Position numbers and translations under genes: made by a program. Positions 15,958-55,177 of a stretch of DNA of 64,000 nucleotides are shown one piece after another; position 1 is the first letter of the stretch, and each line of letters begins with the position of its first letter. The notes below the pieces were generated by a model. That model was not told where the DNA came from. It worked only from the letters and a program-made list of their open reading frames with translations, and did not search any database. Source of the DNA: Granulicella arctica (lineage in GTDB: Bacteria; Acidobacteriota; Terriglobia; Terriglobales; Acidobacteriaceae); assembly GCF_025685605.1 (NCBI RefSeq), contig NZ_JAGTUT010000001.1, positions 2,108,001-2,172,000 of the forward strand, read 5' to 3'.

Positions 15958-17400
15958 ATGGCAACCAAAGGCCCCCTTCACGATCCGGTTGTAGACCCGA
16001 TGATTGATCCGCGTACCGGAGAGTACGCGGTCATCGCGCCGGGCCACAACTTCAAATCGGTAACGCAGAAGATCGCTGGTATCGTCCTTACTTCAAATAC
16101 GCCGCTAGGCTGGTTCTTCGGTCTCATGGTCGGTGCGGGCATCGCCACAGGCGTGGTGATTGGCTGCACCTGGCTATTCCTGAAAGGCGTCGGCATCTGG
16201 GGCGTAACGATTCCTGGAGCCTGGGGCTTCGCCATCATCAACTTTGTATGGTGGATTGGAATCGGTCATGCCGGCACTTTGATCTCAGCCATCTTGTTGC
16301 TGTTCAAGCAGACCTGGCGTAACTCCATCAATCGATTTGCTGAAGCAATGACGATCTTCGCCGTAGTTTGCGCGGGAACGTTCCCGCTCATCCACGTTGG
16401 TCGTCCGTGGCTGGCTTATTGGCTGTTTCCCTACCCGAATACGATGAACGTCTGGCCACAATTCCGCAGCCCGCTGGCCTGGGACGTGTTCGCAGTTTCG
16501 ACCTACGCAACGATCTCAATCGTGTTCTGGTACATCGGCATGATCCCCGACTTTGGGACACTGCGCGATCGGGCGACACTGCCATTTGCCAAGTGGTCCT
16601 ATGGAATCCTATCGCTCGGCTGGCGTGGCTCCACCCGGCATTGGATTCGGTATGAGACGGCATCGCTCTTGCTCGCGGGCTTATCAACGCCGCTCGTGCT
16701 CTCCGTACACACGGTCATCAGCTTCGACTTCGCCGTAGCCGCTTTGGCTGGTTGGCATACGACCATCTTCCCACCTTACTTTGTGGCTGGCGCTGTGTAC
16801 TCAGGCTTCGCGATGGTATTGACGCTAGCTATTCCGCTGCGGAAGTTCTATCACCTGGAAGATTTAGTGACTCTTCGCCATCTGGATAATATGGCAAAGG
16901 TCATGATCGGTACTGGCGGGATCGTCGCCTATGGCTACGGTATGGAAGTCTTCATGTCGTGGTATTCGGCGAGCCATTGGGAGTTCTTCATGATGTGGAA
17001 TCGTATGTTCGGGCCGATGGGCTGGGCGTACTGGATCCTCATTCTGACGAATATCGCAATTCCGCTCACGACGCTCTGGTCTCGTAAGCTTCGTGTCAAC
17101 GTCGTCTATCTCTTTATCCTGTCGCTCATTGTCAATACTGGAATGTGGTTCGAACGCTTCGTCATCGTTGTGACGAGCCTCTATCGTGATTACCTGCCGT
17201 CCAGTTGGGGAACGTATCGCGCCACGAAGTGGGATTACATGATCTACGTGGGCACGATGGGCTTGTTCACCTGCTTGTTCCTGCTGTTTGTTCGGCTGCT
17301 TCCCATGATTCCTATGTCGGAAATTCGAATGATGTTGCCGCAGACCAAGATCACGCCGGGTGGCGCAACCGCTGAGATTATTGACCAGGAGACCGCCTGA
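15958..17400 (+). CDS. actC: Alternative complex III subunit ActC, NrfD-like quinol-binding membrane protein
   Basis: Protein of 480 residues with about ten transmembrane helices, of the NrfD/PsrC family. ActC carries a quinol-oxidising site near the periplasmic side in solved complexes. It starts one base after the actB stop, and its TGA shares a base with the actD ATG. The run WWIGIGHAGTLISAILLLFKQ (near residue 98) holds the conserved His/Gly core of the helix bundle. It is expected to pair with ActF, a second NrfD-like subunit, in the membrane. Confidence 0.92.
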   Translation: MATKGPLHDPVVDPMIDPRTGEYAVIAPGHNFKSVTQKIAGIVLTSNTPLGWFFGLMVGAGIATGVVIGCTWLFLKGVGIWGVTIPGAWGFAIINFVWWIGIGHAGTLISAILLLFKQTWRNSINRFAEAMTIFAVVCAGTFPLIHVGRPWLAYWLFPYPNTMNVWPQFRSPLAWDVFAVSTYATISIVFWYIGMIPDFGTLRDRATLPFAKWSYGILSLGWRGSTRHWIRYETASLLLAGLSTPLVLSVHTVISFDFAVAALAGWHTTIFPPYFVAGAVYSGFAMVLTLAIPLRKFYHLEDLVTLRHLDNMAKVMIGTGGIVAYGYGMEVFMSWYSASHWEFFMMWNRMFGPMGWAYWILILTNIAIPLTTLWSRKLRVNVVYLFILSLIVNTGMWFERFVIVVTSLYRDYLPSSWGTYRATKWDYMIYVGTMGLFTCLFLLFVRLLPMIPMSEIRMMLPQTKITPGGATAEIIDQETA

Positions 17401-17942
17401 TGCCGCCGCGCGAAGGAATTTATGGTTTGATCGCCGAGTTCAACACCCCGGCTGAGTTGGTTCACGCAACCCAGCAGGCGCGTCGCGCCGGGTACCGCCG
17501 GATGGAATGCTACACACCTTATCCAGTCGAAGAGGCTGCGGAAGCCTTGGACTTTCATAGAACGCGCGTTCCCCTGGTCTGCCTCCTCGGAGGGTTGATG
17601 GGACTAACAACGGCCTATTTGATGGAGACATGGATCAACGTGTGGGGCTATCCGTTGAACATCGCGGGACGTCCGCTGTTCTCCTGGCCGGCGTTCATTA
17701 TTCCTGCATACGAATGGACGATTCTCTTCGCGGGCCTTTCTGCCGGATTTGGCATGATCGGTCTCAATGGCTTGCCGCAGCTCTACCATCCCGTTTTCAA
17801 TGCGCCGAATTTTCGGAATGGCGCAACGAGCGATAAATTCTTTCTCTGCCTCGAGGCGGCTGATCCCAAGTTTTCAATTGGTGAGACGCGCGCGTTCCTT
17901 GAGCAGTTCCCCGCGATATCCGTGGTGGAGGTGGATCATTAA
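17400..17942 (+). CDS. actD: Alternative complex III subunit ActD (DUF3341)
   Basis: Protein of 180 residues with the DUF3341 pattern: a soluble start, GLIAEFNTPAELVHATQQAR, then GYRRMECYTPYPVEEAAEAL, and two transmembrane segments (about residues 60-80 and 95-125). ActD is a small structural subunit that packs against ActC/ActF. The start ATG overlaps the actC stop by one base. Its TAA overlaps the unusual ATT start proposed for actE. Confidence 0.9.
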   Translation: MPPREGIYGLIAEFNTPAELVHATQQARRAGYRRMECYTPYPVEEAAEALDFHRTRVPLVCLLGGLMGLTTAYLMETWINVWGYPLNIAGRPLFSWPAFIIPAYEWTILFAGLSAGFGMIGLNGLPQLYHPVFNAPNFRNGATSDKFFLCLEAADPKFSIGETRAFLEQFPAISVVEVDH

Positions 17943-18732
17943 TACGCGACGAGCCAAGACACCTGAACAGAAGACCTTCGTACGTGGTTTATGCGCGTCC
18001 GCATCGGTCGCGGTTCTCTTCACGGCAGGGTGCCGTCAGGACATGCACGATCAGCCCAAATTTATTCCGCAGCGTGGCACTTCCTTCTATGCTGATGGCC
18101 GTTCAGCCCGTCCGCAGGTTGAGAACACGGTGGGCAGAGGACAGCTTCACGAGGATAGCTACTTCTATACCGGCTTCGTAGGTGGAAAAGAAGGCGACGC
18201 AATGCCCTTTCCCGTCACGATGGACGTTCTCGAACGCGGCCAAGAGCGTTACAACATCTATTGCACGCCGTGCCACTCGCGCGTGGGCAACGGAGCTGGC
18301 ATGATCGTTCAGCGTGGATATGCGCAAGCCGGTAATCTGCACACGCCGCGAATGCAGGCGGCTCCGCTGGGCCACTTCTACAACGTGATCAGCAATGGCT
18401 ATGGCGCGATGCCGGATTACTCGGCACAGGTCACAGTCGCAGATCGCTGGGCTATCGTCGCCTACATCAAGGCCCTGCAGCTGAGCCAGAATGCCTCAGC
18501 AGGCGATGTTCCCGCGGGCGCTCATGTTGACCCTCTTTCCTCAATCGCGGAACGAGAGGGCCTACCTTCTACCTCCGCCGATGAGTGGACGGTACCGACG
18601 ACCGCAGTCACCGGCACGCCGGACAATCAACCTTTTGTTCTTCCGGGGGCTGGCTCTGCCACTGTCGGTGGAACTTCCAAAGACACAACACCTGTGGCCA
18701 AAGGGCTGCCGTCATCCGCAACAAAGAACTGA
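17938..18732 (+). CDS. actE: Alternative complex III subunit ActE, cytochrome c lipoprotein, probable ATT start
   Basis: Monoheme cytochrome c of about 264 residues with the heme motif CTPCH and a distal Met in the AMPDY region. A short basic N-terminus, a hydrophobic stretch and LFTAGC form a lipoprotein signal, so it should be anchored on the periplasmic face, as ActE is in characterised complexes. The frame has no ATG, GTG or TTG close to the signal peptide: upstream codons read PWWRWII within actD, and the first later Met follows the lipobox. ATT at 17938 overlaps the actD stop (ATTAA) and sits six bases after GGAGG (17927-17931), so I take it as the start. ATC at 17935 is the alternative. 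Confidence 0.85.
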   Translation: MNTRRAKTPEQKTFVRGLCASASVAVLFTAGCRQDMHDQPKFIPQRGTSFYADGRSARPQVENTVGRGQLHEDSYFYTGFVGGKEGDAMPFPVTMDVLERGQERYNIYCTPCHSRVGNGAGMIVQRGYAQAGNLHTPRMQAAPLGHFYNVISNGYGAMPDYSAQVTVADRWAIVAYIKALQLSQNASAGDVPAGAHVDPLSSIAEREGLPSTSADEWTVPTTAVTGTPDNQPFVLPGAGSATVGGTSKDTTPVAKGLPSSATKN

Positions 18733-54658: not shown

Positions 54659-55177
54659 TCAATCGCGAGAGGGTGATTCGTGGACCTGCTCAACATAAAG
54701 CGGGTCGTGCTCAGGGGCATCCAGGCGCACGCCGTTCCAATCCTCCGCGACAACGATACTGTTGCCGGGATTGCGGGGATCATAGCGCACCTGCACCGGA
54801 AGGTCGATGCGCAGATGGCGTACGTGGTCTGCGAGGCTGGTGACATCCTGCGCACATTCGTAGGTAACACCGGCGATGCGGTAGCGGTAGATCAGTACAT
54901 GAGGCGAGAGAAGGTAGTCCGGCGGCACGTCCAGGGAGCCGTCCTCGCTGTTGTCTTCCGTCGTGCCGTCGATGCCGACGATGCTTCCGTCGATAATGCG
55001 GCCTTCATGGGCGAGCAGGGTGCGGCGCTGTAGCTCGATTTCGTCGGGAGACTCGCGTTTGCGGAGTTTGGAGTAGAGAAAGATGCCGCCCAGGGCAAGC
55101 AACGTAGCTGCGACGGCGCCCACCTGTTGCCGGGTGATGCGGTCGAGGTGAAGAGAGGATGGAAGATGCGGGAGCAC
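54659..55177 (-). CDS. Membrane-anchored hypothetical protein, DUF3592-like
   Basis: Protein of 172 residues. One membrane helix (VGAVAATLLALGGIFLY, near residue 20) is followed by a basic stretch and a soluble domain containing YRYRIAGVTYECAQDV and VRYDPRNPGNSIV. The last motif resembles the C-terminal strand of DUF3592-type proteins, but I cannot confirm it. Located immediately upstream of the cation-efflux gene (31-bp gap, same strand), it may be in one operon with it. Confidence 0.7.
   Translation of the reverse strand: MLPHLPSSLHLDRITRQQVGAVAATLLALGGIFLYSKLRKRESPDEIELQRRTLLAHEGRIIDGSIVGIDGTTEDNSEDGSLDVPPDYLLSPHVLIYRYRIAGVTYECAQDVTSLADHVRHLRIDLPVQVRYDPRNPGNSIVVAEDWNGVRLDAPEHDPLYVEQVHESPSRD

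Follow-up and report, generated by a model that had tools for sequence, protein, structure and literature searches.

The locus of the ActE subunit of alternative complex III in Granulicella arctica raises a simple question: at which codon does translation of actE begin? A preliminary description had proposed an ATT that overlaps the stop codon of the preceding gene, actD. We examined this junction in the window, that is, the whole 64,000-nucleotide stretch analyzed here (RefSeq assembly GCF_025685605.1, contig NZ_JAGTUT010000001.1, positions 2,108,001 to 2,172,000 of the forward strand), and in related acidobacteria. Our analysis indicates that actE is very probably translated from the ATT at 17938, as judged from the conservation of the codon and its surroundings.

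The junction lies within an alternative complex III operon. An NrfD-type gene, actC (PF03916), is located upstream of actD (17400..17942, forward strand), which encodes the ActD subunit (PF11821, E 9.4e-66) from an ordinary ATG start. Directly 3' of actD, on the same strand, lies actE (17938..18732; 264 codons plus stop), which carries a Cytochrome_CBB3 domain (PF13442, E 3.6e-12), a CxxCH heme c motif (CTPCH, 18262..18276) and a lipobox (FTAGC), assigned by motif alone, whose Cys codon (18031..18033) closes a 31-residue signal peptide counted from the ATT. The gene thus encodes a monoheme cytochrome c lipoprotein behind an ActD neighbor, as expected of ActE.

Direct reading of the window gives the tail and stop of actD as GTGGAGGTGGATCATTAA. 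Read in the frame of actD, the junction is GTG GTG GAG GTG GAT CAT TAA, and the protein ends in VVEVDH. The actE frame is +1 relative to actD, reads ATC ATT AAT ACG CGA, and is open from 17758 to 18732. An extended Shine-Dalgarno (SD) sequence, GGAGGTG (17927..17933), lies within the actD coding sequence, and its GGAGG core (17927-17931) is separated by six bases (17932-17937) from the ATT (17938..17940). The final T of the ATT also opens the actD stop codon, TAA (17940..17942). Start and stop therefore share ATTAA as a 5-nt overlap, within the range in which termination-reinitiation is considered (stop and start overlapping or a few bases apart). The SD core, the spacing and the overlapping ATT had all been given in the preliminary description, and each was confirmed at its position.

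The same description held that no ATG, GTG or TTG lies near the signal peptide. This is correct from 17902 to the Cys codon at 18031; further upstream it fails, as the open frame contains ATG at -173, -140 and -122, TTG at 17878, GTG at 17881 and TTG at 17899 (in this numbering the ATT is at -2 and the Cys codon at +91). The nearest of these, TTG 17899, would place a 44-residue leader ahead of the Cys. An ATG at +103 was rejected as a start; it lies downstream of the lipobox Cys, so the signal would be lost.

To place the junction in a wider context, we collected actD loci from related genomes. The genus set comprised 62 genomes, one per species, 59 of them with ActD at E <= 1e-40; its named records are Edaphobacter (E. 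lichenicola is now Tunturiibacter lichenicola), Granulicella and Acidobacteriaceae. Altogether, 138 loci with actD were reduced to 117 distinct junctions by collapsing identical ones. Sixty distinct junctions belong to the genus, two of them (L027 and L032) from a single genome, G006, and 59 were classified; the unclassified junctions of the whole collection are L050, L105 and L128.

In the genus, each actE frame comes with its own kind of junction codon, and no classified locus departs from this. The window's frame (-2) was found in 39 of the 59 classified junctions, and all 39 have ATT at -2. The last actD codon in these loci is CAT in 38 and TAT in one, followed by TAA in 35 and TAG in four. 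The ATT thus persists where His becomes Tyr, as it does at 11 loci outside the genus. The remaining 20 junctions use another frame, have no ATT, and all carry ATG, GTG or TTG at the junction. In frame -1 the canonical junction start is ATG in TAATG (13 loci), TTG in TTGA (three) or GTG in GTGA (three), accounting for 19 of 19, and the one locus in frame 0 has ATG at +3 (TAAATG). Conservation across 39 loci rules out a base error as the origin of the ATT. Separately, the actD stop in the ATT class is never TGA; ATTGA would place an out-of-frame TTG at the same SD, and the TTG of TTGA is the inferred start in three sister loci.

The preliminary description had proposed that a conserved ATT with an SD, and no canonical codon, in related acidobacteria would support its reading. 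The ATT and the SD are conserved in 39 of 39 loci, the pattern of codon and strong SD held across species that marks AUU-type starts. The full combination occurs in 15 of the 39, which have no canonical codon in the interval that begins at -20 and ends 12 codons ahead of the Cys. Extending the search upstream to -45 leaves 11 such loci, and in three (L013, L024 and L031, the last from a single-contig genome) canonical codons are wholly absent, all the way from the preceding in-frame stop to the Cys. Some relatives, as far as their open frames tell, have no canonical codon able to replace the ATT.

It is nevertheless conceivable that a canonical codon is used (TTG 17899 in the window; TTG at -41, GTG at +10, ATG at +4 or others in relatives) and that the ATT is a bystander. 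Such codons are present far upstream in the window, and 20 of the 39 loci retain a formally plausible alternative, defined as an ATG, GTG or TTG that gives a signal of 15-40 residues with K or R in the n-region. These are mainly GTG at +10 (12 loci) and TTG at -41. However, no position is shared: 19 of the 39 loci, the window included, have no plausible canonical start, and the 11 loci without any canonical codon between -45 and a point 12 codons ahead of the Cys exclude TTG -41 as a common one. Among the ATT-class loci with no plausible canonical start are those of the cultured strains Granulicella aggregans M8UP14 (L160) and Granulicella rosea DSM 18704 (L191). Pairing with the SD also speaks against the alternatives, which reach 0 to -6.4 kcal/mol; GTG +10 offers a good signal but pairs weakly (-3.0 to -4.9 kcal/mol). 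The exception is ATG at +4, which in two loci lies within reach of the same SD as the ATT. We therefore consider a canonical start very improbable.

The codon at +4 is ACG in 23 of the 39 loci and otherwise ACC (eight), ACT (four), ATG (two), CCG (one) or TCG (one), and ACG was rejected as a start on account of this variation. Only L014 and L064 have the ATG, one transition away from the prevailing ACG.

The stretch behind the ATT was then considered as a coding sequence. Counted from the ATT, the signal has 23-39 residues with at least one K or R in the n-region in all 39 loci, and none of the 39 has an in-frame stop between the ATT and the Cys. Among 13 sister pairs, the region from +4 to the Cys shows 78, 71 and 109 differences at codon positions 1, 2 and 3, respectively, and the ATT-to-Cys stretch has 60 synonymous versus 105 non-synonymous codon differences. 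The third-position excess is modest, and by these counts the stretch appears coding-like but fast-evolving, in the manner of signal peptides.

We next asked whether the codon itself is maintained. Two of the ATT bases are fixed by the His or Tyr codon of actD and by the stop, which leaves the wobble base as the test. Changes were counted on a tree of actD and mature actE with 107 rows, from which the last 12 actD codons, L137 and loci with <60% ActD identity were left out. As the loci are related and not independent, we relied on change counts over a rank test. The tree itself has many weak branches (29 of 104 open). The free ATT base shows no change in the ATT class, while the wobble base of the adjacent Asp codon changes 10 times and 111 conserved degenerate columns of the 39 loci average 9.0 changes. 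Six of these 111 columns are unchanged: -54, -48, -5, -4 and -3 (the last three being the SD codons GTG GAG GTG) and -1, which makes the ATT. When only two-fold codons are considered, 2 of 35 columns are unchanged, the other being Phe -48, and three more change once or twice. An unchanged wobble base is thus uncommon rather than unique. Elsewhere in the same actD genes, His is encoded by CAT 74 times and by CAC 71 times.

The SD codons follow the same pattern. In the canonical class (20 genus loci, mean 4.8 changes), column -4 is unchanged, while -5 changes three times and -3 five times. The 16S tail GGATCACCTCCTTT was found in this genome, and its duplex with the SD has a predicted energy of -14.0 kcal/mol in all 39 ATT-class loci. 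The 20 canonical loci have a median of -11.6 kcal/mol and range from -7.2 to -16.3, with three stronger than the ATT class and four equal to it. A bystander ATT would leave the unchanged wobble T and SD codons unexplained. These data show that the ATT and GGAGGTG are kept together, at initiation spacing, in the actD tail of many relatives.

A conserved wobble T and SD would also fit a programmed +1 frameshift at CAT-TAA in the style of release factor 2, in which the SD would push the ribosome from CAU to AUU and produce an ActD-ActE fusion cut at its internal signal peptide. As in prfB (PMC5009743), an internal SD is located shortly ahead of a sense codon and a stop, and actE does lie in the +1 frame. 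The cited account of the RF2 site, however, describes a highly conserved CUU_U with a C nearly always following the UGA (PMC5009743), whereas the 39 genus loci have CAT or TAT followed by TAA or TAG, so that both the shift codon and the stop context differ. By our reasoning, such a shift would require tRNA-His or tRNA-Tyr to re-pair on AUU despite two mismatches. The 6 nt between GGAGG and ATT correspond to initiation spacing, and twenty sister loci have an actE start of their own. A frameshift fusion consequently fits worse than the ATT start, and we regard it as highly unlikely.

Outside the genus, 57 distinct junctions were collected, of which 55 were classified. Fifty came from the family and seven (L044-L050) from other families; the family junctions are the top loci plus 40 chosen stretches, taken from 269 genomes with ActD among 299, and are not a random sample. 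The window's frame occurs in 19 of the 55, and 12 of these 19 have the ATT, always with GGAGGTG at the same spacing. Seven of the 12 also carry a canonical codon at +7, and L115 alone has none between -20 and a point 12 codons ahead of the Cys; the strict argument for the ATT is therefore based on the genus. Three family loci in the window's frame (L135, L140 and L143) have CAC and hence no ATT; they have ATG at +7, and their SD region has drifted. Three further family loci (L071, L080 and L107) depart from the rule linking frame and codon, with neither an ATT in the window's frame nor a canonical junction codon.

To assess how unusual the arrangement is within the genome, we searched for GGAGGNNNNNNATTAA (GGAGGN6ATTAA), which occurs four times in 5.85 Mb. 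Of these, the actE site alone has a long ORF on either side; the other three were rejected as gene starts, with 28, 18 and 38 codons behind the ATT. A crude gene finder, applied to 800 kb of the genome and to the window (864 kb in all), gave 165 pairs of close tandem genes. Three pairs have an ATT in a 5-nt overlap, and of these actE alone is free of canonical codons in the interval from -40 to +60; such codons are missing from that interval, for any reason, in 16 of the 165 pairs. Two candidates for a further ATT overlap were rejected: one, near 656992 on C1, has TTG in frame at -8, and the other, on the minus strand of the window near 54661, has weak SD pairing and canonical codons. The neighboring act genes have ordinary starts. 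For actD the start is ATG at 56 of the 59 genus loci, and at the other three the script missed the start; a canonical codon is present for actF in 30 of 30 by a loose test.

An IF3 gene was present in all eight genomes searched, seven from the genus and one relative. In six of the seven genus genomes, infC has GGAGG-N6-ATT, and its open frame is free of canonical codons up to the conserved N-terminus of IF3, which suggests that these genomes use ATT for infC as well. Assigned in this way, the infC start is most likely ATT. The seventh genus gene (L147) has GGAGG-N5-ATT with an in-frame ATG upstream, and the relative (L153) has ATC. The infC of the G. arctica genome itself (L148; G000:C1 near 1915413-1915619, outside the window) has GGAGG-N6-ATT and no canonical start before the conserved N-terminus.

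How might such a start operate? Re-initiation is suggested by the ATTAA that the actD stop and the actE start share. Ribosomes ending actD at UAA would be held by the SD pairing, with the AUU in or beside the P site, and would re-initiate there with initiator tRNA, whose CAU anticodon could pair with AUU at its first two bases; 30S subunits entering de novo at the same SD may contribute. AUU is weak and is discriminated against by IF3, so ActE output is expected to be lower than that of ActD, dependent on actD and sensitive to IF3. The lower output and the IF3 sensitivity are proposed from the parallel with infC and sigR. An excess of IF3 is reported to lower re-initiation in E. coli, less so with an SD present (PMC2268962), and AUU is cited at about 0.3% of AUG in that species (PMC10666635). 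Setting of the ActE level by coupling to actD or by IF3, as the preliminary description had it, is plausible.

The arrangement may have arisen through an indel that shifted the actE frame, together with a change of CAC or TAC to CAT or TAT in the last actD codon, which would have created the ATT. With an overlap of 5 nt the start has to end in T, which excludes every canonical codon and leaves ATT as the best one available.

It may also be that the ATT is used and carries no regulatory meaning, a reading compatible with an ATT start. A strong SD and a low need for the subunit would then tolerate a poor codon, and register-restoring indels would be rare. The tree requires 15 changes between ATT and other states, which would fit this. 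So would the phenotype reported for Flavobacterium johnsoniae, in which deletion of actE slows growth and does not impair cytochrome aa3 activity (PMC8552683). ActE is thus dispensable for electron transfer to cytochrome aa3 in that organism, which belongs to another phylum, and a low level may do. On the other side, an ATG at +4 is a single transition away in the 23 loci with ACG, yet only two of the 39 have it, and the canonical class conserves the SD codons less strictly. We regard the absence of a regulatory role as a real possibility, somewhat short of an even chance.

A bolder reading is that ATTAA and ATTAG form a genuine, selected third class of termination-reinitiation junction, in which the extended SD would hold the ribosome, AUU would serve for the restart and IF3 would set ActE per ActD. 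We put this forward tentatively, rating it slightly below even. If it is true, the class would be hidden from annotation, as gene finders take only ATG, GTG and TTG, and further members may exist at any -5 overlap that is combined with a strong SD.

Few bacterial genes are known to have a conserved AUU start, and the one proposed here would belong to a respiratory-complex gene in 39 genus genomes and in some genomes of other genera. It would also make actE a well-conserved case of the -5 overlap, with both ATTAA and ATTAG, in a register closed to canonical starts. In sister species the same junction holds TAATG, TTGA or GTGA; these serve as natural controls and allow re-initiation, SD strength and discrimination by IF3 to be tested at a single junction. 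We infer that the annotated N-terminus of actE is probably wrong in these genomes.

The comparison also yielded several separate observations. Six genus genomes (L038-L043) have a further actE-like gene with an open frame of 385-494 codons and no ActD match within 1.7-1.8 kb around it. In L128 and L230, actD ends in GAGTATTAA and the script recognized no lipobox frame behind it; actE may have been moved or interrupted there. Three records titled Rhodanobacteraceae or Verrucomicrobia (L173, L184 and L195) contain acidobacterial ActD genes (81-88% identity), and these titles are therefore probably wrong.

Among known systems, infC is the closest in start codon. It encodes IF3, starts at ATT, ATC or ATA, and is autoregulated by IF3. 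Like actE it has an AUU behind a strong SD, in the GGAGG-N6-ATT form seen in most of the genus genomes above, but it encodes the discriminating factor itself, whereas actE encodes a respiratory subunit. The preliminary description had called ATT starts known for very few genes and named infC and pcnB. As a list the two genes fall short, since sigR (PMC5472188) and cvfC1 and ccpN (PMC13009471) add further non-canonical starts. For pcnB, a title cited in PMC13009471 counts it among the non-canonical starts. Streptomyces sigR has a GTC start repressed by IF3, and it resembles actE in having a conserved non-canonical codon (GTC in 32 of 34 species, GTT in two) behind a very extensive ribosome binding site, AGGAGGTG (PMC5472188). 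According to the same source, it differs in being the first gene of its operon, in its codon and in having been demonstrated experimentally, whereas actE is known from sequence. Staphylococcus cvfC1 (AUU) and ccpN (AUA) likewise combine conserved non-canonical starts with strong, extended SDs, and these starts lower initiation, as shown by Ribo-Ret and reporters (PMC13009471). Unlike actE, cvfC1 is the first gene of its operon, and the cited sections of that report mention a stop overlap for neither gene.

With respect to the overlap, the actD-actE pair is similar to the -4 (ATGA) and -1 (TAATG) re-initiation overlaps, which also join neighboring subunits of one complex through shared start and stop bases (PMC10666635). 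The canonical sister loci, with TAATG, TTGA or GTGA, are like these known short overlaps. The actE junction of the ATT class, in contrast, is in the -5 register (ATTAA or ATTAG), which, according to the survey in PMC10666635, seems to be excluded for canonical starts. In its 2,661,236 gene pairs, 5-nt overlaps were more than 1,000-fold rarer than 4-nt overlaps, and the -5 cases are ascribed there to annotation errors or to rare non-canonical starts, with ATTGA, ATTAG and ATTAA as possible forms (PMC10666635). Within the open-licence PMC literature we recognized no paper on an actE ATT start or on the actD-actE junction, which is no proof of absence. A conserved non-canonical start behind an extended SD is thus of a known kind, and it is the register of its overlap that sets actE apart.
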